The notes beneath the pieces are model-generated. The model worked only from the letters and a program-made list of their open reading frames with translations, searched no databases and was not told the origin of the DNA. The translations under genes were made by a program, and so were the position numbers. Positions 15,350 through 29,773 of a stretch of 64,000 nt of DNA are shown one piece after another. Positions within the stretch are counted from its first letter, which is position 1; each line of letters begins with the position of its first letter. Source of the DNA: Aeromonas rivuli (GTDB taxonomy: Bacteria; Pseudomonadota; Gammaproteobacteria; Enterobacterales; Aeromonadaceae); assembly GCF_000820045.1 (NCBI RefSeq), contig NZ_CDBJ01000071.1:190174-254173 (forward strand), in the 5' to 3' direction.

Positions 15350-16076
15350 GATGATTTCTCCTGCGGGTTAACCAAGGTCGCGCCCATTGCGTCCTTGTTG
15401 TGATCCGTCCGGCGGTAGCTGGGCTGGCCGCACCGCGCAGCGGCCGCAACAACGTGAAGGGCCTGGAAGCGAAAAGAATTTGTCCCGCGAGGAATGCGCG
15501 CAGCGCAGGGGAAATTGTTTTCGCTGGAAGGTTGTGGCCATGAGCCCAAGGCGCAGCCGTGCCATCGCCAGGATTCACAACGAGACAAGGACGCAGGGGC
15601 CGACCGTCCCGCCAAGGAGAGATGGCCGACTCGGCCCCCGCATGCCGGCTGCACCGGTTTGTGCCCTGACGCGGGCTCGGTCAATGCCCCAATGACCGGG
15701 CGGAAGCGCCCCTGCCGCAGCCTTGGACGGCGGGTTTGAGGCGTGGCGTGGCAGCTCCATAGCGAGGCCGGGCGGCGTGTCCGTGAACCGTCCTTCGTGA
15801 CGTGATTGCGCTGAACCGCCAGCGTCGAGGACGGCACGCTTTCGCACAACCTGCCGCAGCAAGCCAAGGCGTAACCCCACAAGCCCCGCCCATTGCGGCG
15901 GGGTGTTGCGTTCACCGCAAGCGGAGCGCGCAGCGCCGCAGGCGCGAAGACGTGAGGGATTGACGCCGCATGGCCGTGACGCCATTGGCGGCATGGGGCG
16001 CAGCCCGAAAGCCCGGCGGCGCATCGCGCCGACACGCCAAGCTACTCATGCAATGACAACATGCAGCGAAGACCCG
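15350..16076. other. Gene-free stretch upstream of DUF736, with repeat copy B
   Basis: Some 727 bases with many overlapping open frames on both strands, which is expected at this GC content; none has a recognisable domain or a ribosome site. The right part holds repeat copy B. The DUF736 promoter should lie near 15,360-15,450. Confidence 0.5.
15918..16038. repeat. Dispersed element repeat, copy B
   Basis: Direct-orientation second copy of the repeat at 14750-14874, about 1.17 kb away, with the same block order and few changes. It directly follows the 3' end of the damaged ClbS/DfsB gene, as copy A follows the XRE gene. Confidence 0.75.
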
Positions 16077-19045: not shown

Positions 19046-19876
19046 TCAGGTTTTCAACTGGGGCAGGCCATCGGCCAGCAGCCACAGGGCGCGGTTCAGG
19101 CGCACATCGGAATCGATGCCCTGCACGGGGCGCGTGCGCTGGCGGCGTCCGTTGGCGCTGCGCCCGGTCAAGCCGCCTTTGGTCAAGTTCTCCTGCGTGC
19201 GGTTGAACACGCTCCACAGGTCGGGACGGCGGTCATCGAACCGGCGCGGCATGAGGATTTGCGATTCGGTGATGGGCGCGGGCTTGCTGCCGGTGGTGTC
19301 GAACTTGAGGGACAACGCGGCGCGGGCGAACACTTCGGATTCGCCATCGTCCAAGGTGATGCCGCGCATGGCATCGCGGGATTCCTTCACCCGGTCGAAG
19401 CCGCGCAAGACTTCATAAGCGCCGTCGATGACGGAACCGGCCACGTCACCTTTGTGGGGCACGCGCACATCGGCTACGGTGTCGCCGCATACAAGGCCAT
19501 TGCTGCACACGAACCGGAACATGCCGGCCAGCATCTGATAGCTACTGGTGCCGTCATGCGAGTTCAGAAGCACAATTTCATTGGCTTCCGCGCCGTTGAT
19601 CTGGCTCGCGTGCCGCAGGCGCAGCATGTGTTTGGTGTATTCGCGGCGGTCGTCGTGCCGCACGCGGGTTTGTGCTGCCATGAAAGGTTCAAACCCTTCC
19701 TTGCGCAGTTCCGCCAGCACGGCGGCGGTGGGGATGTAGGCGTACCGTTCGGAGCGGCTTTCGTGCGGGGCGTCCGCGAAGATAGACGGGGCCACGCGGC
19801 GGATTTGATCGTCGGACAGCGGGGAATCGCTGCGCAGCGTCGGGGAATGGGAAGCGAAGCGGGAGGCGAGTTGCAT
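19046..19876 (-). CDS. DUF932 protein
   Basis: A 276-residue protein of the DUF932 family found on phages and conjugative elements. Conserved-looking parts are RYAYIPTAAVLAELRKEGF, the segment ANEIVLLNSHDGTSSYQMLA and FRFVCSNGLVCGD. No membrane segment or known catalytic motif is visible. It starts at 19876 and is followed after 80 bases by the ParB-like gene, probably on one leftward transcript. The function is unknown. Confidence 0.88.
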   Translation of the reverse strand: MQLASRFASHSPTLRSDSPLSDDQIRRVAPSIFADAPHESRSERYAYIPTAAVLAELRKEGFEPFMAAQTRVRHDDRREYTKHMLRLRHASQINGAEANEIVLLNSHDGTSSYQMLAGMFRFVCSNGLVCGDTVADVRVPHKGDVAGSVIDGAYEVLRGFDRVKESRDAMRGITLDDGESEVFARAALSLKFDTTGSKPAPITESQILMPRRFDDRRPDLWSVFNRTQENLTKGGLTGRSANGRRQRTRPVQGIDSDVRLNRALWLLADGLPQLKT

Positions 19877-20120: not shown

Positions 20121-20386
20121 GCACCGCGGGCTACGGTCGCGGGAAAAAGCGATGAACTTGGGGAAAGACGAACAGCGGCCGATGGGCCAGGGAGATGCGC
20201 TGAAACCAACGCCGCGCGGCGAGCGCCCCTGCGTGCCAGCGGCACGCCTAGCTGGTTAGCTATTGGCCGATCAGGTGCAACCTGTTCGGCTGCATTCGAG
20301 GGGCGCTAAGCAAGGCGCGGCGGGGATGGGCTGTCCAGCCGATCCCCTGGAGGGCAAGCGTCGCGCGCAGGCCAGGAGCGAAGAGA

Positions 20387-20482
20387 CGGCCGGAGGCATC
20401 AGGGATCAAAGCCGCATGGCCGCGACTCGGTACGAGGCGCGGGGCAACGCCCGCGAGCCCGACGGCGGGACGCCGGGATGCA
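20387..20482. repeat. Diverged copy C of the dispersed element repeat
   Basis: The blocks CAGGGATCAAAGCCGCATGG, GGCGCGGGGCAACGCC and GACGGCGGGACGCCGGGATG follow the order seen in copies A and B, but with many changes. It again lies at the end of a block, here where the backbone meets the cassette. Confidence 0.5.
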
Positions 20483-20533
20483 ATGCCACTCGTGACAAAA
20501 AGTAAATGACTTAAAAGCCCAGATGAGCCACAA

Positions 20534-20543
20534 TGTAGCTACA
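20534..20543. promoter_or_regulatory. Palindrome upstream of the RelB-like gene
   Basis: TGTAGCTACA is a perfect 10-base palindrome 20 bases before the RelB/DinJ-like start. RelB-type antitoxins bind such palindromes to repress their own operon, so this may be a remaining operator. Confidence 0.45.
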
Positions 20544-20563
20544 ACCACCTCTGAGCATATGAA

Positions 20564-20755
20564 ATGGCTAGCACTGACGTCGTTCGTGCCCGGATAGACG
20601 GGCATATCAAAGAAGAAGCGAGCAGCGTCTTGGCCGAGATGGGACTGTCTGTTTCGGATGCCATCCGTATGCTGCTAACCCGCATTGCAGCGGACAAAGC
20701 GCTGCCGTTTGACGTCAATCGCGTCCTTCCCCATTCGGATCGGAAGACGCCATGA
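20564..20755 (+). CDS. RelB/DinJ-type antitoxin, C-terminally truncated, no toxin
   Basis: A 63-residue protein. Residues 1-51 match the DNA-binding half of RelB/DinJ antitoxins: VVRARIDGHIKEEASSVLAE, then MGLSVSDAIRMLLTRIAADK and ALPFDV. The family continues for roughly another 25-35 residues that wrap the toxin, but here the frame ends in NRVLPHSDRKTP, which looks like unrelated joined sequence. No YafQ/RelE-like toxin gene follows; the next gene is an ABC-3C component. It may be a relic, or it may have been kept as a repressor for the downstream defence genes. Only 28 bases separate it from the next start. Confidence 0.75.
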   Translation: MASTDVVRARIDGHIKEEASSVLAEMGLSVSDAIRMLLTRIAADKALPFDVNRVLPHSDRKTP

Positions 20756-20783
20756 GGTTGTGCCTGAAAACACTTAACCAGTC

Positions 20784-21719
20784 ATGGCCCTGAACCGCAT
20801 GGATCGCATACAACAGCTCGGCTACGAAAAAGATTTCCGCATCATCTTCCTTGAAGCCAAGGGGGACGGATTTCAGCGCCTGTTCGAAAAACTGATGGCG
20901 AAGGCCCACCCGAACGACTTCATGGCCTGCCGACCATGGGGCAATGTCGGCGACAGAAAAAATGACGGGTACCTGCCATCGGCTCGAACCCTATTTCAGA
21001 GCTATGCCCCCAATGAGTTGAGTGCTGCCGAAGCCATCAAAAAGATCAACGAGGATTTCGAGGGCGCAAAAGAGCATTGGGAAAAATATTTTGGTGAGTG
21101 GACTTTTGTCCATAACGCACCCGATGGGCGCCTTGGCCCCCACATCATCGAAGCGCTGGCCAAGCTCGCGCAAGAAAACCCGAAGATCAAGATTGGCCAC
21201 TGTGGTTGGGATGAAATGCTTTCGAAGTTTCGCCAGCTCAGCCTGCAGGATCTCGAATCTTGGTTCGGCCCCTCGCTGACCATGGAAGCAAACGTCAATC
21301 TGGGCTATAGCGATTTGATGGCCGTACTTACGCACATCAACGTTGCTCCCGCTCCAGAGACGAGTGAAGTCAAAGATGTCTCGCGGGGGAAAATCGAGGC
21401 AAATCTTCTATCCGCGGTAGTCGCCGACTTTTTGAAGATTGGGATGCAGAAGTCGCCATTGGTGACGCAGTTCTTCGATAACTGGAAGAACCCCGTGTAC
21501 GGCGAACAAATTGCCTCGGCATTCAAGAATAAATACGTGTCTTTGAGGGATGCGATCCCCTCGCGTCATCCCGATGAAATCTTTGGACAGCTTGAAACCT
21601 GGGCAGGGGGAGTCGTAAACACGACACCCACACATAAGGCGGCGGTGCTGGCGGTCATGGCCTATCTGTTCGACAAGTGCGAGATATTCGAAGATGCCCA
21701 AGCGGTGAGGTCAACATGA
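20784..21719 (+). CDS. ABC-3C system effector-type component
   Basis: A 311-residue protein, first gene of a three-gene ABC-3C operon. The N-terminal half (residues about 10-150) has FLEAKGDGFQRLFEKLM followed by GNVGDRKNDGYLP and TLFQSYAP, an arrangement that resembles a restriction-endonuclease-like core (acidic helix, D-x-K-x-D-G turn, Q-x-Y strand); this is my reading, not a proven fold. Residues about 195-305 are helical and match in position the C-terminal domain that such effectors use to dock to the other components. The start lacks a strong ribosome site; M6 (20799) is an alternative. Its stop overlaps the next start (ATGA). Confidence 0.65.
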   Translation: MALNRMDRIQQLGYEKDFRIIFLEAKGDGFQRLFEKLMAKAHPNDFMACRPWGNVGDRKNDGYLPSARTLFQSYAPNELSAAEAIKKINEDFEGAKEHWEKYFGEWTFVHNAPDGRLGPHIIEALAKLAQENPKIKIGHCGWDEMLSKFRQLSLQDLESWFGPSLTMEANVNLGYSDLMAVLTHINVAPAPETSEVKDVSRGKIEANLLSAVVADFLKIGMQKSPLVTQFFDNWKNPVYGEQIASAFKNKYVSLRDAIPSRHPDEIFGQLETWAGGVVNTTPTHKAAVLAVMAYLFDKCEIFEDAQAVRST

Positions 21720-21967
21720 TCCTACCGTCCAAGCATCTTCCGCAAGATCGCGCGCTACTCACCGTGGGCGGTCATGTCCTGACTTTTCTCGCGCGTCCAA
21801 AAACGGTTTCCGCGTTGTGGGAGGAATTGAACCGACAGGACCAAGGGATGGTTGCCATTCGCCCTCGGCGAATAACCTACGACTGGTTCGTGCTTGCGCT
21901 GGACCTGCTGTATTCCCTTGGAACTATCGAACTTGAAAATGGCCTTGTGGCACGGAGGGAAGCTTGA
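21716..21967 (+). CDS. ABC-3C middle component
   Basis: An 83-residue protein, MILPSKHLPQDRALLTVGGH onward, with helix-strand content expected of the small winged-helix-like middle component of ABC-three-component systems (LWEELNRQ, TYDWFVLALDLLYSLGTIEL). ATG at 21716 overlaps the stop of the effector-type gene by four bases, and its own stop overlaps the TTG start of the ATPase gene, so all three are translationally coupled. It probably links the effector to the ATPase. Confidence 0.75.
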   Translation: MILPSKHLPQDRALLTVGGHVLTFLARPKTVSALWEELNRQDQGMVAIRPRRITYDWFVLALDLLYSLGTIELENGLVARREA

Positions 21968-23685
21968 TTCACCATCTTTTCAGCACGCTGCCCACCTTCA
22001 AGAATCTCGGCGATTTGAAGCCAGGTCTGAACGTGCTGCTTGCCCAAAAAACCGAAGGCGCAAGTACCAAGCAAACGCGCAACCGCGCAGGCAAAACGAG
22101 TTTCATTGAAACAGTTCATTTTCTGACCGGCTCGGAAGCCGGTCCTGATTCCATCTTCCGCACGCCGGAGTTGGCCGAATACACCTTCGGCATGGACTTC
22201 GATTTGAAAGATGCGCGTACCGTCGTCGAGCGCAGCGGTAGTGCCAAAGCCAAGATCTACGTTACAACGCCCCCGGAGGCCAAGCGCAAGCTATCGGCAA
22301 CCGATTGGGTCACGTTCCTCGGTGAGGAGATGTTCGGCCTGAGCAGTCTCGAAGCTGCAGGCAGCAAGCCCCCTTCGTTTCGGTCATTGTTTGCCTACTT
22401 TGTGCGGCGCCAGATGAGCGGCGCGTTCACTACGCCAGAGAAGCAGGCCACCATGCAGGGAACGGGCGACATGCAAATGGCGCTGATGTTTCTGCTTGGG
22501 CTCGACTGGCAGATCGCGCGCGATTGGCAAGCGGTTCGTGATCGTGAAAAGACCTTGGAAGAATTGAAGAAGGCGGCGGGTACGGGGGCGTTCGGATCAA
22601 TCATCGGCAAGGCCGCTGATTTGCGAACGCAGTTAACCCTGCAGGAATCTCGCCTCAAGAAGCTCTATTCGGAAATCGAAACCTTCCAAGTATTACCTGA
22701 GTACCGGGAACTGGAAGTCGAAAGCGCCAAGCTGACGCGTCAGCTCAATGAACTGGCCAATGCCAACACCATAGACTTCGCAGCCATCCGCGACCTCGAA
22801 GGCGCGCTGGCCTCCGAAATCCCACCGGATCTGGAAGACCTGCAAGCGATCTATCAGGAAGCGGGCGTTGCACTTCCAGGCCTCGTAAAGCGTCGATACG
22901 AGGATGTGAAAAGCTTCCATCAATCGGTTGTGCGCAATCGTAAGGACTATTTGTCCAGCGAACTTGAAGCGGCACAGCTACGCATCGAGTTGCGCGACAG
23001 CCAGAAAGCGCAACTCGATCAGCGACGTGCGGAGATCATGGGCATCCTCAGGAGTCATGGCGCACTGGATCAGTTCCTCAAGTTGCAGGGGGAATTAGGT
23101 CGCCTGGAATCGGAAGTGGAATCCCTACGGCAGCGTTTCGAAGCGGCCGAGCAGCTCGAAGGCACGAAAAACGAGTTGGAGATCGAGCGCAACCGGCTCA
23201 CGATCCGGCTGCGTCGCGATTTTGCCGAGCAGAAGGATCGGCTGGCCGAAGCCATCGTCGCTTTCGAGGAAACGTCGCAACGCCTCTACGAGTCGGCCGG
23301 CAGCATGACCGTCGACGAAACCTCCAACGGCCCGATGTTCAAGTTTCCGATGCAGGGTCAACGCAGCAAGGGCATCAAGAACATGCAGATCTTCTGCTTC
23401 GACATGATGCTTATGCGCTTGTGCCACAAGCGGCAAATAGGACCCGGCTTCTTGATCCATGACAGCCACCTGTTCGACGGTGTTGACGGCCGGCAGGTGA
23501 TCAGCGCCTTGCGCTTGGGTTCGGAGATTTCGCAGGAACTTGGTTTTCAGTACATCGTGACGATGAATGAAGACGACGCCTTTAAAGAAACCATCGATGG
23601 CTTCGATCTCAATGACCATGTGCTTCCAACGCGTTTGACCGATGCCACGGAAGATGGTGGGCTGTTCGGAATTCGGTTTGGATAG
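21964..23685 (+). CDS. ABC-3C ATPase (DUF2326, SMC/Rad50-like)
   Basis: A 573-residue ATPase with a TTG start overlapping the previous stop. The P-loop is in RNRAGKTSFIE (Lys44, Thr45), followed by the strand-helix of an SMC/RecF-like head. Residues about 195-430 are mostly charged heptad-like coiled coil (for example LRTQLTLQESRLKKLYSEIE). The C-terminal head half is the DUF2326 region, with MFKFPMQGQRSKGIKNMQIF and the LIHDSHLFDGVDGRQ motif that replaces a usual Walker B block. In the ABC-3C model, the ATPase senses foreign nucleic acid or another cue and triggers the effector through the middle component. Confidence 0.85.
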   Translation: MIHHLFSTLPTFKNLGDLKPGLNVLLAQKTEGASTKQTRNRAGKTSFIETVHFLTGSEAGPDSIFRTPELAEYTFGMDFDLKDARTVVERSGSAKAKIYVTTPPEAKRKLSATDWVTFLGEEMFGLSSLEAAGSKPPSFRSLFAYFVRRQMSGAFTTPEKQATMQGTGDMQMALMFLLGLDWQIARDWQAVRDREKTLEELKKAAGTGAFGSIIGKAADLRTQLTLQESRLKKLYSEIETFQVLPEYRELEVESAKLTRQLNELANANTIDFAAIRDLEGALASEIPPDLEDLQAIYQEAGVALPGLVKRRYEDVKSFHQSVVRNRKDYLSSELEAAQLRIELRDSQKAQLDQRRAEIMGILRSHGALDQFLKLQGELGRLESEVESLRQRFEAAEQLEGTKNELEIERNRLTIRLRRDFAEQKDRLAEAIVAFEETSQRLYESAGSMTVDETSNGPMFKFPMQGQRSKGIKNMQIFCFDMMLMRLCHKRQIGPGFLIHDSHLFDGVDGRQVISALRLGSEISQELGFQYIVTMNEDDAFKETIDGFDLNDHVLPTRLTDATEDGGLFGIRFG

Positions 23686-23765
23686 AGGTGTATTTAGAAA
23701 ATTGAAGGCCTGAGTGTGAACGCGTTGCCGGGGCCTAACGAAAAAAATTAAGGGACCTAAAAATC

Positions 23766-25094
23766 ATGACAAAACCCCCAAGCGCAAGCACTGCCCCAGT
23801 TGCCGCACCTGTTGTCGCCGCCGCACCGACGTCTGCACTTCCATTCCCAGCGCTCCACGACGCAGCGCAGCAAGCAAGAAATCTGCGGCAGGTGCTCCAA
23901 GATGACAAGCAGCGTATCGGCTGTTTCCTTGGTGCGGGTTGCCCGCTTGGAATCTACGATGCGGCCGGCAAAGACAGCGTCGTGCTAATCCCGGCCATCG
24001 TCGAACTGACGAAGCGGGTCGCTGCCGGGCTGGAGGCAAGCGACAGCGCTTCCGGAGCCACATCAAAGTTCAAGGCGCATTGGGATGCATTGTGTGTGGA
24101 ATGCAAACCATCCGATGACAAGGACCCGACCGTTGAAGACGTATTGACAGAGTTGCGCACTCTGGCCAATCGGCGCGGGACTGCCGAGATTTTGGGAATG
24201 TCGAAGGAGAACTTAAGTGACCTGGATAACAAAGTCTGCGCACTGATTGCAACTGAGATGCGTAAGCCGCTCCCCGCCTATCGCAGTTCATACAATCGCT
24301 TTGCATCGTGGATCGGTGGCGTTCAACGTGATGCTCCAGCGGAAATATTTACGCCTAACTATGACCTGCTTTTTGAACAGGCGCTTGAACAGCATCCGCT
24401 ACCGCACTTCGATGGTTTTGTTGGCTCACGAGAACCATGGTTCGATTTGGCGTCGATCGAGCACGACGTAATTCCCGCGAGGTGGACGAGGCTGTGGAAG
24501 CTACACGGCTCCATCAATTGGGAGAAGAGCGAGGAAATCGTGAGTGGGGCGAAGATTACGCGCGTTGTTCGCGTCACACGTGAGGCCGCAGCAGGCAAGG
24601 TAATGATCTTCCCTTCGCACCTCAAGTACGACCAAAGCCGTCGCATGCCATATCTCGCAATGCTTGATCGACTAAGGGCATTTTTCCACGGGAAGGATGC
24701 TCCCAGGCTTGTTGTGTGCGGATATTCCTTTCTCGACGACCACCTCAATGAAGTTTTGCTAGATGGATTGCGGGGCAACCGGAACGCTCAATGCTTTGCG
24801 CTGATGTATTCAGGTCTCGGACAACATTCGAGAGTTGTCGACTACGCAGTAAAACAGAGCAACCTCACCGTTCTGGCTTGGGACGGAGCAGTCGTAGGAA
24901 CGCGCGTGGGGCTTTACCGTCCCGGAACCATTGGAGGCCACGAGCACACGCCGTGGCTGATGGAAGAAGCGGCCGCCGGTGGCGATCCCAAAGAACTTCA
25001 GCCACGTAGCCGTCTCGGAGACTTCCACTATTTTGGTCTTTTTCTCGAACAACTTTGTGGTGGGAGCAATCATGATGCGCAGCCCATCGTCTAA
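23766..25094 (+). CDS. SIR2-like NADase of a SIR2-HerA defence pair
   Basis: A 442-residue protein. After an Ala/Pro-rich N terminus (residues 1-28), a SIR2 Rossmann domain carries the NAD-binding GAG motif (FLGAG, residues 54-58), the TPNYD motif (196-200, with Asn198 and Asp200) and the catalytic histidine in KLHGSINW (His247). In anti-phage SIR2 proteins these residues support NAD+ hydrolysis. ATG at 23766 has AAGGGA upstream. Its last 23 bases overlap the HerA gene, and the pair is therefore coupled. SIR2-HerA pairs are a known anti-phage system in which NAD+ depletion or nuclease activity stops infection. Confidence 0.9.
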   Translation: MTKPPSASTAPVAAPVVAAAPTSALPFPALHDAAQQARNLRQVLQDDKQRIGCFLGAGCPLGIYDAAGKDSVVLIPAIVELTKRVAAGLEASDSASGATSKFKAHWDALCVECKPSDDKDPTVEDVLTELRTLANRRGTAEILGMSKENLSDLDNKVCALIATEMRKPLPAYRSSYNRFASWIGGVQRDAPAEIFTPNYDLLFEQALEQHPLPHFDGFVGSREPWFDLASIEHDVIPARWTRLWKLHGSINWEKSEEIVSGAKITRVVRVTREAAAGKVMIFPSHLKYDQSRRMPYLAMLDRLRAFFHGKDAPRLVVCGYSFLDDHLNEVLLDGLRGNRNAQCFALMYSGLGQHSRVVDYAVKQSNLTVLAWDGAVVGTRVGLYRPGTIGGHEHTPWLMEEAAAGGDPKELQPRSRLGDFHYFGLFLEQLCGGSNHDAQPIV

Positions 25095-26955
25095 TCTCGA
25101 CCCTTCACGGCTTGGTACTGTTGAGGATGTGAACGGCTCAAGCGTGAGTGTGAAACTTGCGGAGAGCACACCGGGCGGACTCTTATTTGTCAATGGTGAG
25201 GCATATCGCGTCGGACAAGTCGGGGGATTTGTCCGTATTCCATCTGGATATGTAGACCTCTATGGTGTGATCTCACAAGTTGGAGCTGGCGCCGCCCCTG
25301 GTCCACCGGAACTCGCGCCTCAATTCGGCAATCGATGGCTTAGGATTGAACTCGTCGGCCAAGGACGCCGGGGAACAAAGTTTGAACGCGGCATCGCACA
25401 GTACCCCTCCATCGGCGACTCTGCCCATGTCGTCACCGAATCGGACTTGAAAACGGTCTATGCGCCTGGAGACGAAGATGGCTATGTCGCCGTTGGGCGC
25501 GTCGCCAGCGCCGAGTCGATCCGCGCATACATCGACATGAATCGCTTGATCAGCCGTCATTCTGCAGTGGTGGGAAGCACTGGCTCTGGGAAGTCGAATG
25601 CCGTGGCGAATCTACTTGGTGCTATTTCCGATCAAACTCGGTTCAAGTCTGCTCGCGTCGTATTGTTTGACCTTCACGGTGAGTATGCGAAGGCATTTGG
25701 CGATCAGGCCCGTGTATTTAGGGTTGGGGCGGATACCGCCGCAGGGGAGCGGGAACTCCATGTTCCATTTTGGGCGCTCACAGCGGAGGAATTTACTTCG
25801 TTGGCGATGGGTCCGGTATCAGGAACGCCCCTCGCGTTACTGCAAGAAAGGTTGTTGACCAGCAAAAGGGCATCGAAGCCGGGTGGCATCCCACATGCCT
25901 TGCCTGATCTCAGCGTCACCGTCGATACACCGCTTCCGTTCTCTGTCTACCAGCTCTGGCACGACCTGTATTCATTGCATTGCGCGACTCATAGCGTTAG
26001 CAAGAACCAAAACCAGACTGAGGCCACGCGAGTCTATATCGAAGACGGTGCTCCTCCCCAAAAGGCCACCGGCGATGGCGACCAGCTCGTGCGTCCTCGA
26101 TTCCGTCCGATCACAACAGAGGCAGGTGCCGACAAGGTTTATGGCGGGCTCTACATTGATGCGCCGCGACCGCACCTGGATGTGTTGGAAAGCAAGCTTC
26201 GCGATCCACGCATGCAATTCCTCTTCAACCCTGGTGAATGGGCTGTCGCGAAAGACGGCACTACAACGTCAGATCTCGATGCTCTGCTCTCAGCGTGGAT
26301 AGGGGCCGACACTCCAATTTCAGTATTCGATCTGTCGGGAATTCCAACTTCCGTTGTAGATGATTTGGTTGGGGCCGTTTTAAGAATTCTTTATGACGCG
26401 GTGTTTTGGGGAAGGACGAAACCAGAGGGAGGTCGAGAAAGGCCGTTACTTGTCGTCATGGAAGAAGCGCACGTGTATCTCAGTGCTCAGTCAAAGAGCC
26501 GCGCAGCTACTGCCGCGCGGCGCATCGCGAAAGAGGGGCGAAAATATGGAGTTGGGTTAATGCTGGTCAGCCAGCGTCCTTCCGAAATAGACACTACGAT
26601 CCTTTCGCAGTGTGGCACGGTCATCGCCCTACGTCTGACAAATGACTCAGATCGTGCTCAAGTTACCTCATGTGCATCGGATAATCTTAAGGGTCTCTTT
26701 TCGATGCTACCTGTTCTCCGCACCGGCGAGGCGTTGATTGTGGGAGAGGCTGTCAACATGCCGATACGGGCAATCATCGACCGTCCGCCAGAAGGCCGAC
26801 GACCTGATAGCGACGATCCTGTGGTAGTTGTTCCCAAGGGTGCTGACGGGAACCGTATTCGGAGTGGCGGCTGGACTGAGCCGGTACAGAATGAAAATTA
26901 CAAGCCCCTAGTGGAGGCCTGGCGTAAGCAAGATCCAAATGCTGGTGAGAAATAA
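25072..26955 (+). CDS. HerA-type DNA translocase ATPase of SIR2-HerA
   Basis: A 627-residue FtsK/HerA-fold ATPase. An N-terminal HAS beta-barrel (about 1-100) precedes the core: Walker A GSTGSGKS (168-175), Walker B LLVVMEEAH (catalytic Glu465) and the arginine-finger region SQRPSE (500-505). ATG at 25072, with GGGAG upstream, is preferred over the open extension to 24979. Such ATPases form hexamers that scaffold the SIR2 partner. The region 270-400 between the motifs is long and contains a TTEAGADKVYGGLYIDAPRP loop that may be a partner-contact insertion. It ends 47 bases before the KTSC gene. Confidence 0.9.
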   Translation: MMRSPSSNLDPSRLGTVEDVNGSSVSVKLAESTPGGLLFVNGEAYRVGQVGGFVRIPSGYVDLYGVISQVGAGAAPGPPELAPQFGNRWLRIELVGQGRRGTKFERGIAQYPSIGDSAHVVTESDLKTVYAPGDEDGYVAVGRVASAESIRAYIDMNRLISRHSAVVGSTGSGKSNAVANLLGAISDQTRFKSARVVLFDLHGEYAKAFGDQARVFRVGADTAAGERELHVPFWALTAEEFTSLAMGPVSGTPLALLQERLLTSKRASKPGGIPHALPDLSVTVDTPLPFSVYQLWHDLYSLHCATHSVSKNQNQTEATRVYIEDGAPPQKATGDGDQLVRPRFRPITTEAGADKVYGGLYIDAPRPHLDVLESKLRDPRMQFLFNPGEWAVAKDGTTTSDLDALLSAWIGADTPISVFDLSGIPTSVVDDLVGAVLRILYDAVFWGRTKPEGGRERPLLVVMEEAHVYLSAQSKSRAATAARRIAKEGRKYGVGLMLVSQRPSEIDTTILSQCGTVIALRLTNDSDRAQVTSCASDNLKGLFSMLPVLRTGEALIVGEAVNMPIRAIIDRPPEGRRPDSDDPVVVVPKGADGNRIRSGGWTEPVQNENYKPLVEAWRKQDPNAGEK

Positions 26956-27002
26956 CCCCCGTAAGCCAAAAGTTTTATTACACCCAATGGAGATGACGCA
27001 CT

Positions 27003-27212
27003 ATGGAACGTACACCAGTAACCTCAACCGACATCTGTGCAATCGGCTATGACGCAGATACTCAAACCCTTGAAATTGAGTTCAATACTGGATCTGTATA
27101 CGACTATTCGGACGTACCTCAAGGTGAATATGACGCGTTCATCGGCTCAGACTCAAAGGGGAAATATTTCCACGCCAATATCAAAAATCGATACTCGTTT
27201 GTAAAGCTCTAA
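27003..27212 (+). CDS. KTSC-domain protein
   Basis: A 69-residue single-domain protein. IGYDADTQTLEIEFNTGSVY followed by YDYSDVPQGEYDAFIGSDSK and GKYFHANIKNRY is the KTSC domain, a small beta-rich domain named for its link to lysyl-tRNA synthetase C termini. GGAG lies ten bases before ATG 27003. It is on the same strand as SIR2-HerA, 47 bases downstream, and ends 11 bases before the converging DUF1016 gene. It could be an accessory or regulator of the defence genes, but no function is established. Confidence 0.85.
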   Translation: MERTPVTSTDICAIGYDADTQTLEIEFNTGSVYDYSDVPQGEYDAFIGSDSKGKYFHANIKNRYSFVKL

Positions 27213-27223
27213 TAGAACGACAC

Positions 27224-28294
27224 TTACCGCTTTCCCTTGCCAGCGCCAAGCTGCTCGATCTGCAGTCGAGCACGGGCTGTAGCTTGCTGCAGTCGCTCGG
27301 CCAGCAATTCGCGCGGCGGCAGCGTTGTCAGGTATTCGGCGACGTGGATGCCCGACTTGTCCAACTCCAAAAGTTCGATTTGCTCGGACTTCTTGCCGGT
27401 GCAGAGGATGATGCCGAGCGGCAAGGCTTCCTCCGGCTCCCGTTCATGTTTGTCAAGCCAGCGCAGGTAAAGCTCCATCTACCCCTTGTACGCCGCCTTG
27501 AACTCCCCGACCTTCAATTCCACCGCCACCAGTCGGCGCAGCTTGCGGTTGTAGAACAGCAGGTCAAGGTGAAAATCGTCGTTGTCGATCTGGATGCGTT
27601 TTTGTCGAGCCACGAACGTGAAGCCCACGCCCAGCTCCAGCAGGAAGGATTCCATCTCGCGGATGATCGCCGCCTCTAAGTCGCCCTCCTGCCAGGTGTC
27701 GCGCAGGCCCAGGAAGTCGAGGATGTACGGGTCACGCATGACCAGGCTGGGCGAGATGCGCTGCGCGTCGCGCATGGTCGCCAGTTCCTGCGCAATCATC
27801 GTGTCCGGCTTCTTGGACAGCGCCGTGCGTTCGTACAGCATCGAGTCGATGCGCTCGCGCAGTGTCCGAACGCTCCACCGTTCGACGCCGGCCATCTGCG
27901 CGTAGTAGTCCCGCTGCATCGGCTCCTTGAGCGCCAGCAGCAGGACGAAATGCGACCAGCTCAATTGTCGCGACAGTGTCGCGACAATTGGTTCGTCAGG
28001 GAACGTGGCGGCGAACTTGACCATCCGGCGCAGGTTCTTCTCCCCGAAACCCCGCCCGTAGTCACGGGCAAGCTGCTCGGCCAGGGTTGGCAGGATTTCC
28101 TCGCCGTACCCGGCCCGCTGCCCGGCCAGCACTTCCGTATGGATGCGCTGACCGATGCGCCAGAACAGCAAGGTCAGCTCGGCATTGACCGCTGAAGCGG
28201 CGCGCTGGTGCGACGCCTCGATCAGTGCCCGGATGTCGCCCAGCAGCGCCACCGGCGCTGCTGGCGACGTGACAGACGCCTTGTGCCGGGTCAT
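27224..28294 (-). pseudogene. DUF1016 (YhcG-type) PD-(D/E)XK nuclease gene interrupted by an amber codon
   Basis: A 356-codon frame runs from ATG 28294 to a stop at 27224, with a single in-frame TAG at 27479-27481 (codon 272). The N-terminal DUF1016 helical domain (residues 15-190) and the nuclease core (Asp244 in FHLDLLF, Glu259 and Lys261 in AVELKVGEF) precede the stop. After it the family-typical MELYLRWLDKHERE continues in frame. Relatives usually have Gln at this codon, so CAG to TAG is the simple explanation. The start overlaps the integrase stop (ATGA). The 271-residue product retains the catalytic residues but lacks the C-terminal strands; suppressor readthrough is possible. Confidence 0.85.
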
Positions 28295-29490
28295 GCCGCC
28301 ACCTCTTTGGCTCGTTGCATCCCGGTGATCGTCTTGCGACGATTCGCCACCAGTTCGGCCGCGTCTCGCACCGGCTTGTCCTCGGTGTGGACGTAGCGCA
28401 TGAACATCACGACGGTCTTGTGCGCCGTCAGCGCCATGCCGACCTTGACCGGGATGCCCGAATTAGCAATGTCGGTCGCCGAACGGTGGCGGATGCCGTG
28501 CGTGCCCACGTGCGTGGCGCCAGCCGCCTTGAGCGCACGGCTCCAGCCACCGTAATACTCGCCCGTGGTCAGATGTTTGCCGGCGTGGCTCGGAGAAGGC
28601 AGCACGTAGCGGCAGCCCTCCTGCCGGGGTGCCGTCGAGAGTAGCCGATAGGCTTCCTCGCTCATGGGCTTGGACATGCCGCCGGTCTTGCTATCAGGCC
28701 AGACGACCCGCCGGTTCTGCAGGTCAACCCAGTCCCATTCCAGCGCAATGATTTCCGAGCGACGGCCAGCGAACTCGAATTGCAGGCGGATGCCCAAAGG
28801 GATGACGTAGTTCTCTAGTCCCTCCGACTCGATCTTGTCGAGCTGCCGGAACAAGTCGCCCATTTCTTCATCGCTGATGAGGTGGGTTGATTTGCCGGCA
28901 GGGAACATTGGGACGTGACGGCATGGGTTGGTGCCGTCGGGCCGATAGCCCCATACCTCGGCCATGTTGAACATCTTGCGCAAGACGCTGAAGACCTTGT
29001 TCGCCTCGGTCTGCTTATACGAGAGCTTCTCCATCAGCCCTGCGATGTCAGGACGCTTCACGTCCTGAACTTTCTTGCGGCCTAGCAGCGGGATGATGTT
29101 GCGATTGATGACGGCCTGATAGCCGGCCTGGGTACTGAGCTTGTTGCGCTTCTTGGAGTAGTCCTCCATGAACTTCGTGCATAGCTCTTTGACCGTGGGG
29201 GCCTGGCGCGCCTCTGCCTTCTCCGCGGCGGGATCGCCGCCTCGGCGAACCTGGGCGAGCCATTCCTGCGCCAGCGACCGCGCCTGTTCGACGGTCAGCT
29301 CCCCGTACAGCCCTAGCGAGGGTTTGCGGCGCTCGCCAGCGTTCGTCCGATACTGGAGCATGAACACCTTGCGACCCGCCGGGGTAATCTTGCACAGGAA
29401 GCCGGGGACCAGCGTATCCCTGAGTTCGACGGCCTCTGCCTGGGGTTGCGCTGCGTCGACAGCGGACTTAGTGAGTTTGATCTTAGCCAT
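28291..29490 (-). CDS. int: Tn4371-type tyrosine integrase
   Basis: A 399-residue site-specific recombinase. Residues 1-95 are the DUF4102 arm-binding domain (AKIKLTKSAVDAAQPQAEAV), 98-180 the core-binding SAM-like domain, and 200-385 the catalytic domain with Arg in AGRRSEII (243-244), HGIR (His331, Arg334), His357 in TAHKT and nucleophile Tyr366 in MRYVHTED. ATG at 29490 has AAGGAG ten bases upstream. It sits at the right end of the element, reading inward, and shares an ATGA overlap with the DUF1016 gene. Its close resemblance to the Tn4371 integrase assigns the element to that family. Confidence 0.95.
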   Translation of the reverse strand: MAKIKLTKSAVDAAQPQAEAVELRDTLVPGFLCKITPAGRKVFMLQYRTNAGERRKPSLGLYGELTVEQARSLAQEWLAQVRRGGDPAAEKAEARQAPTVKELCTKFMEDYSKKRNKLSTQAGYQAVINRNIIPLLGRKKVQDVKRPDIAGLMEKLSYKQTEANKVFSVLRKMFNMAEVWGYRPDGTNPCRHVPMFPAGKSTHLISDEEMGDLFRQLDKIESEGLENYVIPLGIRLQFEFAGRRSEIIALEWDWVDLQNRRVVWPDSKTGGMSKPMSEEAYRLLSTAPRQEGCRYVLPSPSHAGKHLTTGEYYGGWSRALKAAGATHVGTHGIRHRSATDIANSGIPVKVGMALTAHKTVVMFMRYVHTEDKPVRDAAELVANRRKTITGMQRAKEVAA

Positions 29491-29773
29491 GATGACTCCT
29501 TGGGAAGACCCGGATTCCAAGAGCCGGATAGGAGTCAGGCGGTCGGAAGTCAGGTCAGGTTTCGGAAAGCACCGGCATATGTTGAACTCGCCTAAGTTAT
29601 TGATAAACCTGCTGTATCTGGCTGTGGCGTAGTCCAGCGAATTTCGGTGCTGGAGTCATCGTGAAATAAAAAATCCGGCTTATGGCCGGATTTTTTATTG
29701 GACTCGAGCTGCCTGAATCGTGATCGGAGCCGAGCTGTATGGCGATGAGGGTCTCCTGCTCGTCGTCAGCGGC
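29491..29773. other. Element right border and chromosome junction
   Basis: About 283 bases with no gene. The integrase promoter and int-binding region should lie at 29,491-29,600. On the minus strand TTTTTTA (29673-29667) fits the T-rich attachment core described for Tn4371-type elements, so the junction is probably here, at the foot of an Aeromonas terminator. No tRNA 3' end is visible. The left end is needed to confirm the direct repeat. Confidence 0.45.
29668..29696. terminator. Bidirectional rho-independent terminator at the junction
   Basis: AAAAAATCCGGC (29668-29679) pairs exactly with GCCGGATTTTTT (29685-29696) around a 5-base loop. The flanking A and T runs allow termination both ways: of the leftward 29774-30163 gene and of whatever was upstream before the element entered. 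Confidence 0.85.

Follow-up and report, generated by a model that had tools for sequence, protein, structure and literature searches.

Sirtuin-HerA pairs (SIR2-HerA, or Nezha) are known from solved structures of SIR2 (8w9l) and HerA (8wiv), and from Vibrio cholerae, where changes in the SIR2 active site abolished protection against phage and loss of HerA reduced it, as reported in PMC11559045. HerA can also be accompanied by a KTSC protein; the accessible part of PMC9503650, which gives this as an unpublished observation, mentions it only for variants where an endoDNase replaces the sirtuin. The other group of interest is the ABC-3C/Lamassu superfamily, with which comparison was made through the review PMC10586767 and through PDC-M68, a candidate system of PADLOC. 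Both groups are represented, side by side, in a stretch of 64,000 nucleotides (nt) of Aeromonas rivuli (contig NZ_CDBJ01000071.1, positions 190,174 to 254,173), hereafter the window, and this article concerns the relation between the two systems and the small RelB-like gene that precedes them.

In the interval 20,564-27,212, the + strand encodes, in this order, a RelB/DinJ-like protein, an ABC-3C effector of the CTD10 type, middle component 6 (MC6), a DUF2326 ATPase, SIR2, HerA, and a KTSC protein. An original prediction, made from the sequence alone, had described a coupled ABC-3C trio followed after 80 bases by a coupled SIR2-HerA pair and a KTSC gene. Pfam and PADLOC find all of these genes, on one strand and in the interval that it gave: the effector overlaps MC6, MC6 overlaps the ATPase and SIR2 overlaps HerA, and the gaps measure 80 bases between ATPase and SIR2 and 47 bases between HerA and KTSC. 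The RelB/DinJ-like gene, with which the interval begins, was absent from its text.

On balance, we consider it probable that the locus is a cargo slot of a Tn4371-like integrative and conjugative element (ICE) that holds two separate defence systems behind one RelB leader.

The RelB-like leader and the cargoes behind it

The leader encodes 63 amino acids (aa), and its match to PF04221 covers profile positions 2-51 of 82, i.e., the C-terminal part of the antitoxin is missing. No toxin gene lies next to it at this locus; instead, the ABC-3C effector starts 28 nt on. Ordinary RelB/DinJ genes offer a term of comparison: the class, represented by 369 genomes, gave 32 matches other than the leader itself, and 18 of the 19 fetched encode 85-89 aa, with an open reading frame (ORF) of YafQ-like letters (judged by eye) following in 12 of 18. 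For the leaders, counted from where the tblastn match begins up to the stop, the length is 50-71 aa in all but one of 26 distinct rows; the exception is a 6-aa fragment (L022).

How constant is this gene? Among the ABC-3C relatives considered, which are the top 80 among the 296 encoding stretches that a scan with the ATPase alignment found, a RelB profile match stands 5′ of the effector in 28 of the 31 loci whose ATPase is at least 80% identical, at only 23-32 bits in three of them (L023, L024, L027), and in none of the 48 loci below 80%. These counts, and those for the palindrome below, cover loci with an effector match and at least 350 bases before it.

Upstream of the leader lies an operator candidate, ACAATGTAGCTACA, which includes the perfect palindrome TGTAGCTACA and is the sole match within the window (0.02 expected). 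An extended form of the palindrome, with up to two mismatches, recurs in 23 of the same 31 close loci, two of them from plasmid records, and in 0/48 of the more distant ones; a single hit among 3100 mononucleotide shuffles served as the control. The palindrome overlaps a block of promoter-like hexamers, ATGACT and CACAAT, whose surroundings are conserved: ACAATGT is found in 22/22 aligned leader upstream regions (the alignment omitted L008, L010, L018, L022-L024 and L027), and TGAC precedes it by 19-20 nt in 19 of the 22, the exceptions being L002, L003 and L019. A generic scan for the promoter consensus did not list this block; we infer from its conservation and position that it is a promoter, and that RelB may control the defence cargo through it.

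The same leader is found before an entirely different cargo. The window shares DUF932, leader, palindrome, YhcG and integrase with a plasmid of C. freundii (pC50_001, L175) and with a contig of a viral collection (L169), and in both comparisons the blastn similarity ends 8 nt past the RelB stop. Behind the leader, L175 encodes Shedu (SduA, E 7.5e-182), GajA (E 0), GajB (E 7.5e-266) and a 415-aa protein; the cargo of L169 consists of ORFs of 469, 722, 599 and 415 aa, by eye of the same kinds. The combination of leader, Shedu and GajA occurs in 48 plasmid records, all at least 99% identical, with the surroundings inspected in one. The 415-aa protein that follows GajB (L175:15998-17245) has no PADLOC match.

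Further candidates for the leader or its operator were rejected. The operator pattern had nine matches in viral contigs, and all but L169 were taken as chance because only L169 holds any of the tested window genes. The RelB alignment gave three loci there: L172, on the same contig as L169; L173, with ABC-3C; and L174, a full-length RelB. A RelB match in genome G492, the 19th of the class matches fetched, with a 62-aa open frame, proved to be a RelB start run into YafQ-like letters, with no palindrome, and by eye is a relic of a RelB-YafQ toxin-antitoxin pair.

Another sequence near the leader is worth recording. A 77-nt repeat (71%), possibly a shared control region, joins positions 15945-16021, in the ICE backbone, to 20391-20467, upstream of the leader; DNA similar to the copy near 15.9 kb also occurs in L014 and L175.

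Two systems and the junction between them

SIR2-HerA was found in the fetched flank of only 4 of the 80 ABC-3C relatives (L008, L012, L013, L042; at least 4 kb downstream was available in 58). In the opposite direction, 39 loci form the clade of the HerA described here; without the window and the four loci just named, 34 are left that were found without use of ABC-3C, and none has an ABC-3C ATPase match nearby (29 of them with at least 3 kb on both sides). The two systems are therefore usually apart, and the idea that they stand side by side across genomes, as parts of an obligate or ancient combined system, is not supported. In L042, moreover, the two lie within ~2 kb, convergent on opposite strands, and the HerA is ~40% identical. 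Loci with a near-identical ABC-3C (ATPase 97-98%) have other genes to the right (L009, L010); the contig of a further one, L011, ends 1.3 kb on.

What, then, of the tight junction in the window? In two betaproteobacterial contigs, L012 (Sulfurimicrobium MAG, i.e., metagenome-assembled genome) and L013 (Rhodoferax), the systems have the same order, and a 427-aa DUF2130 gene lies between ATPase and SIR2 (E 6.6e-82 and 4.7e-83, respectively). A remnant of the 3′ end of this gene is still visible in the 80-base gap of the window: aligned on its own to the DUF2130 region of L013, the gap has a local alignment score of 68, while 500 shuffles of a 108-nt stretch reach 45 at most. The DNA homology is lost at 23,681 (L013) or 23,688 (L012); it starts again at 23,696, within the final codons of DUF2130. 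Since the gene separates the systems in L012 and L013 and its end remains in the gap, the junction is secondary, and the simplest account is a deletion of ~1.4 kb that would predate the split between the window and L008, a Hydrogenophaga contig with one difference in 401 bases across the junction. DUF2130 itself was tried as a regular partner of SIR2-HerA-KTSC and rejected: a profile made from three of the loci concerned found it in only 3 of 39 clade loci (L004, L012, L013) and once near ABC-3C alone (L035), so that it is not a constant part.

That the two systems can travel together, as had been proposed, is borne out by L008 and by the common order in L012 and L013. The window is 93-100% identical to L008 from ~20,260 to 27,835, where the match to L008 ends; in 250-base bins, identity is 99-100% over ~23,000-27,750 and 93-98% over 20,250-23,000, which indicates that the right-hand part was shared more recently. 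The original prediction would have seen mere neighbours in two systems that relatives show only apart, with a unique junction and a promoter or terminator in the gap. Apart they mostly are; the junction, however, is repeated in L008, and no terminator- or promoter-like match was found on the + strand of 23,686-23,765, in a scan that lists about as many sites as it does in shuffles. The same scan found nothing on the + strand of the DUF2130 junction of L013, taken as ancestral. Co-transcription from ABC-3C into SIR2-HerA remains plausible.

As for the right-hand system, its SIR2 and HerA are adjacent and homologous to the solved complex (E 2.8e-76 against 8w9l and 1.5e-187 against 8wiv). SIR2 residues N198 (NYDLL) and H247 (KLHGS) align with 8w9l and are conserved in 3/3; the assignment of this N and H to NADase activity follows PMC11559045, by motif and not by protein alignment. 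The Walker motifs of HerA, GSTGSGKS and LLVVMEEAH, align with 8wiv. The scores remain below the equivalog cut-offs of the NCBIfam models SIR2_antiphage and HerA_antiphage (51.8 bits vs 500, 235.2 vs 850, and 180.6 vs 800), which points to a different subfamily.

The clade has a third gene in nearly all loci sampled. In the 39 clade loci, SIR2 precedes HerA in all, and KTSC follows it in 38, the exception (L098) being a contig that ends 2 bases after the HerA frame; near copies occur among these loci (L091-L093, L095/L096, and the window with L008). Another 39 loci with lower HerA scores have SIR2 in 28 and KTSC in none, as seen with a KTSC profile built from clade members, which could miss a divergent KTSC outside the clade; two of these loci end 3 bases after HerA (L106, L125), and four hold a partial HerA (L121, L123, L125, L130). 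Clade membership required 600 bits or more against the HerA profile, a cut chosen after the scores had been seen (clade at least 620, others at most 346). A maximum likelihood tree of 73 HerA rows, midpoint-rooted, places the 38 KTSC rows and L098 on one side of a single branch (99/99), with two changes of the KTSC label owing to L098. In the solved HerA 8wiv, KTSC is the C-terminal domain (residues 628-696), and a contig of the viral collection has a natural HerA-KTSC fusion (L094:1128-3239); because of these two cases, the KTSC protein is probably a third subunit. KTSC as a third gene with a sirtuin was not found in passages of the literature on ABC-3C, Lamassu, KTSC and SIR2-HerA; the key ABC-3C and SIR2-HerA structure papers lie outside this check, none of the searches was aimed at RelB/DinJ leaders before such operons, and we claim absence from print neither for KTSC nor for the RelB leader.

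With regard to the left-hand system, an effector with its C-terminal domain, a middle component and an ABC ATPase are united in one operon, as in ABC-3C systems, and tblastn matched both effector and middle component in 78 of the 80 relatives. The ATPase also matches LmuB of PADLOC (E 2.1e-12 over residues 40-445), far more weakly than PDC-M68B. The effector was modelled with AlphaFold2 at a mean pLDDT of 83.4, and the prediction of its domains also draws on structural matches. A sequence search of solved chains with ATPase and effector found no relatives. Pfam CTD10 scores E 5.9e-23 on the effector tail but also E 1.5e-27 on the middle part of the ATPase; the homology between the two that this shared match suggested was rejected, given that hhalign found none (E 0.29, probability 0.2), and the Pfam family may mix two regions.

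Other genes behind ABC-3C deserve mention in their own right. L010:11738-14040 and L014:11791-14108, of two lineages, encode two uncharacterised proteins (420 aa and 347-352 aa) directly behind it; in L010, the second protein has a weak Mrr-like match, and the pair, which PADLOC does not match, is a candidate defence pair. In L009:11826-13507, from a Burkholderiaceae MAG, ABC-3C is followed by a DUF4917 protein (SIR2-like by eye; PADLOC PDC-S21) and a 260-aa protein.

The mobile element and its exchange slot

Judged by its genes, the carrier is a ~47 kb Tn4371-like conjugative element. Left of the cargo are ParB, an RPA-type replication initiator RepA, ParA and a relaxase with DUF3363, and further left, beyond the window, TraG, a TrbB-like ATPase and TrbI; together with the integrase, one element thus unites the Tn4371-like gene set. 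The attribution to this family in the original prediction agrees with gene content and with the Tn4371-type gene order. A 10-bp repeat, AATAAAAAAT, lies beyond both element ends, ~47 kb apart (L159:2618 and window 29665); at the integrase end it occupies the place of TTTTTCAT, presumably the flanking repeat of the family, which is not present there.

The cargo does lie between DUF932 and the integrase, as proposed, with a DUF1016/YhcG gene also preceding the latter (Table 1). An in-frame stop at 27479-27481 interrupts this gene; intact copies occur in L014, L169 and L175. HerA might alternatively start at an upstream GTG, at 24979. The G+C content of the 21-27 kb region is 53-56%, compared with 60-71% over 1-20 kb, which is ICE backbone; host DNA beyond the integrase, on the right, varies from 40 to 67%, so that the AT-richness claimed for the cassette stands against the element only. 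In the genus, the ABC-3C ATPase was found in one of 37 genomes searched, the source genome itself.

Table 1. Features of the window around the exchange slot (positions of the window; E values as given by the searches)
Feature	Position	Strand	Match	Remark
DUF932 gene	19046-19876	-	PF06067 E 3.3e-55	left backbone neighbour of slot
Promoter-like hexamers	20506-20534	+		ATGACT - 17 nt - CACAAT; upstream of RelB-like gene
Operator candidate	20530-20543	+		ACAATGTAGCTACA; perfect palindrome TGTAGCTACA at 20534-20543
RelB/DinJ-like leader gene	20564-20755	+	PF04221 E 6.9e-16	63 aa; C-terminally short
Exchange slot	20764-27249	+	blastn	similarity to L169, L175 ends 20,763, restarts 27,250
ABC-3C effector gene	20784-21719	+	Pfam CTD10 E 5.9e-23	predicted PD-(D/E)XK nuclease domain ~1-163; CTD10 176-303
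ABC-3C MC6 gene	21689-21967	+	PF20293 E 7.1e-19	
ABC-3C DUF2326 ATPase gene	21964-23685	+	PF10088 E 2.5e-43; PADLOC PDC-M68B E 3.6e-147	TTG start
Remnant of DUF2130 gene 3′ end	23696-23751	+		deletion scar in ATPase-SIR2 gap
SIR2-like subunit gene	23766-25094	+	SIR2_2 E 3e-14; PADLOC SIR2 E 3.3e-110	predicted NADase
HerA ATPase gene	25072-26955	+	DUF87 E 4.3e-30; PADLOC HerA E 9.7e-152	
KTSC protein gene	27003-27212	+	PF13619 E 1.2e-25	
DUF1016/YhcG nuclease gene	27227-28294	-	PADLOC PDC-S02	between KTSC and integrase
Tyrosine integrase gene of ICE	28291-29520	-	PF00589 E 4.1e-18	

Slots beside related integrases were also inspected. The one of Delftia lacustris (L194:3740-12299) has a Qat system and an endonuclease/UvrD-helicase pair, that of L195 has metal genes, and that of C. 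freundii SL151 (L196:1329-5027) has another ABC-3C type (MC8, DUF2326). In front of the latter stand a RelE/ParE-type gene and a helix-turn-helix gene, which makes it the second case of toxin-antitoxin-type genes before ABC-3C.

Proposed function, alternatives and known counterparts

How might such a locus work? The 63-aa RelB/DinJ-type protein, as a DNA-binding protein, would most likely repress its own promoter and whatever is transcribed from there. The SMC-like DUF2326 ATPase would sense foreign DNA and, via MC6, hold and then release the predicted PD-(D/E)XK nuclease, which probably kills or arrests the infected cell. SIR2 and HerA, with KTSC probably as a third subunit, would form a large complex that hydrolyses NAD+ upon phage infection. 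The deletion, having presumably taken nearly all of the DUF2130 gene and left 80 bases, would also mean that the RelB promoter probably now drives SIR2-HerA-KTSC.

A bolder version is possible, although we hold it only tentatively: the RelB without toxin and tail would be a plug-in promoter-repressor that brings any defence operon landing behind it under TGTAGCTACA, and KTSC would be an obligate third subunit in a large clade of SIR2-HerA. The cargoes meant are ABC-3C, ABC-3C joined by deletion to SIR2-HerA-KTSC, and Shedu with Gabija. A switch of this kind could produce a burst of defence once the element enters a cell that has no RelB, or whenever stress leads to the degradation of RelB.

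Several observations weigh against the reading of a leader-controlled slot. The RelB profile found nothing in three of the 31 close ABC-3C loci (L033, L035, L036; the last has only a partial effector match, and the place searched may be off), and eight of the 31 have no palindrome within two mismatches. TGTAGCTACA is not enriched genome-wide, with 2 exact sites in 4.5 Mb vs 6 for a reversed control pattern. The 48 records with leader, Shedu and GajA count, given their identity, as one lineage. In L194, L195 and L196 the slot holds other cargo with no leader match, and hence works without a leader. RelB also precedes ABC-3C in L003, where none of the ICE genes tested (DUF932, ParB, YhcG, integrase) matched; RelB may thus belong to ABC-3C, Shedu-Gabija having replaced ABC-3C behind it. 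The same locus, however, also counts against the leader being merely an ICE part. A separate promoter for SIR2-HerA-KTSC may lie within the ATPase gene or in the gap. As to the effector, its catalytic loop is weakly modelled (residues 54-57, pLDDT <50), and at the predicted nuclease site it has Q-x-Y, and not the E/Q-x-K usual for PD-(D/E)XK nucleases.

Against this background, it is unlikely, if far from negligible, that chance brought the two systems together in a defence island or an ICE hot spot and that RelB is an unrelated relic with no shared regulation. Their occurrence apart elsewhere and the various occupants beside related integrases would fit such an account; less easily explained by it are the retention of RelB and palindrome before ABC-3C in divergent hosts, though the flanks diverge, their closeness to the effector (14-59 nt in most loci), and a leader that stands intact before a different cargo. 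The suggestion of the original prediction, that ABC-3C and SIR2-HerA-KTSC act jointly or in sequence as one combined system, appears improbable. Order and strand are the same in the window, L008, L012 and L013, the block is nearly identical in L008, the gap lacks a terminator match, and L042 is an independent lineage with both; but the co-occurrence is rare in either direction, DUF2130 lies between the systems in two relatives and has left its scar in the window, the L042 pair is convergent with a distant HerA, and near-identical ABC-3C has other neighbours. It is highly improbable that the RelB-like protein is still an antitoxin that directly neutralises the ABC-3C effector, making the cassette a toxin-antitoxin-like addiction module of the ICE. 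Its family, and an effector gene in the position of the toxin, speak for that idea, whereas the protein lacks the portion that follows the DNA-binding domain (63 vs 85-89 aa), the same leader precedes Shedu, and RelB was matched in none of the 48 ABC-3C loci with an ATPase below 80% identity.

If the two separate systems are indeed under one RelB leader, the consequences go beyond this locus. Two questions are open: how does mobile defence spare a new host, and how are several systems on one element switched jointly? A toxin-less antitoxin with its operator, placed before exchangeable defence genes, would be a simple and testable answer to both. The leader would also illustrate another fate for antitoxins. 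The scar shows how one deletion can fuse two operons into an apparent single system, and the KTSC linkage suggests that a part is missing when this SIR2-HerA clade is described by two genes.

Comparison with known counterparts places each component. BrxR/CapW-type regulators are likewise small DNA-binding proteins encoded by the first gene and used with different defence systems, but they are winged-helix/WYL proteins, while the leader described here is the remnant of a RelB-type antitoxin. With DinJ-YafQ/RelBE operons it shares the RelB domain, and TGTAGCTACA also precedes 4 of 18 ordinary RelB/DinJ genes; the differences are the lack of a toxin, the shortened antitoxin and a defence operon in the place of the toxin. 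Like other Tn4371-family ICEs, the element has int, RPA-type RepA, ParA/ParB, DUF932, relaxase, TraG and trb-type genes; it differs in the cargo of its slot and apparently in its flanking repeat. The CTD10 effector, MC6 and DUF2326 ATPase in one operon are those of ABC-3C, and in predicted structure the effector domains may correspond one by one to those of LmuA of Lamassu, the ATPase being only weakly matched by LmuB models; distinctive are the RelB-type leader and conserved palindrome in the close clade of the window, the Q-x-Y of the effector, and the lack of a sequence match to solved chains. In the HerA-KTSC-endoDNase variants, as presented in PMC9503650, KTSC is coupled to a HerA-like ATPase as in the window, which has a sirtuin where they have an endoDNase. 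Finally, KTSC is common to the window and to the solved SIR2-HerA (Nezha) system, as a separate gene in the former and as the C-terminal domain of HerA in the latter.

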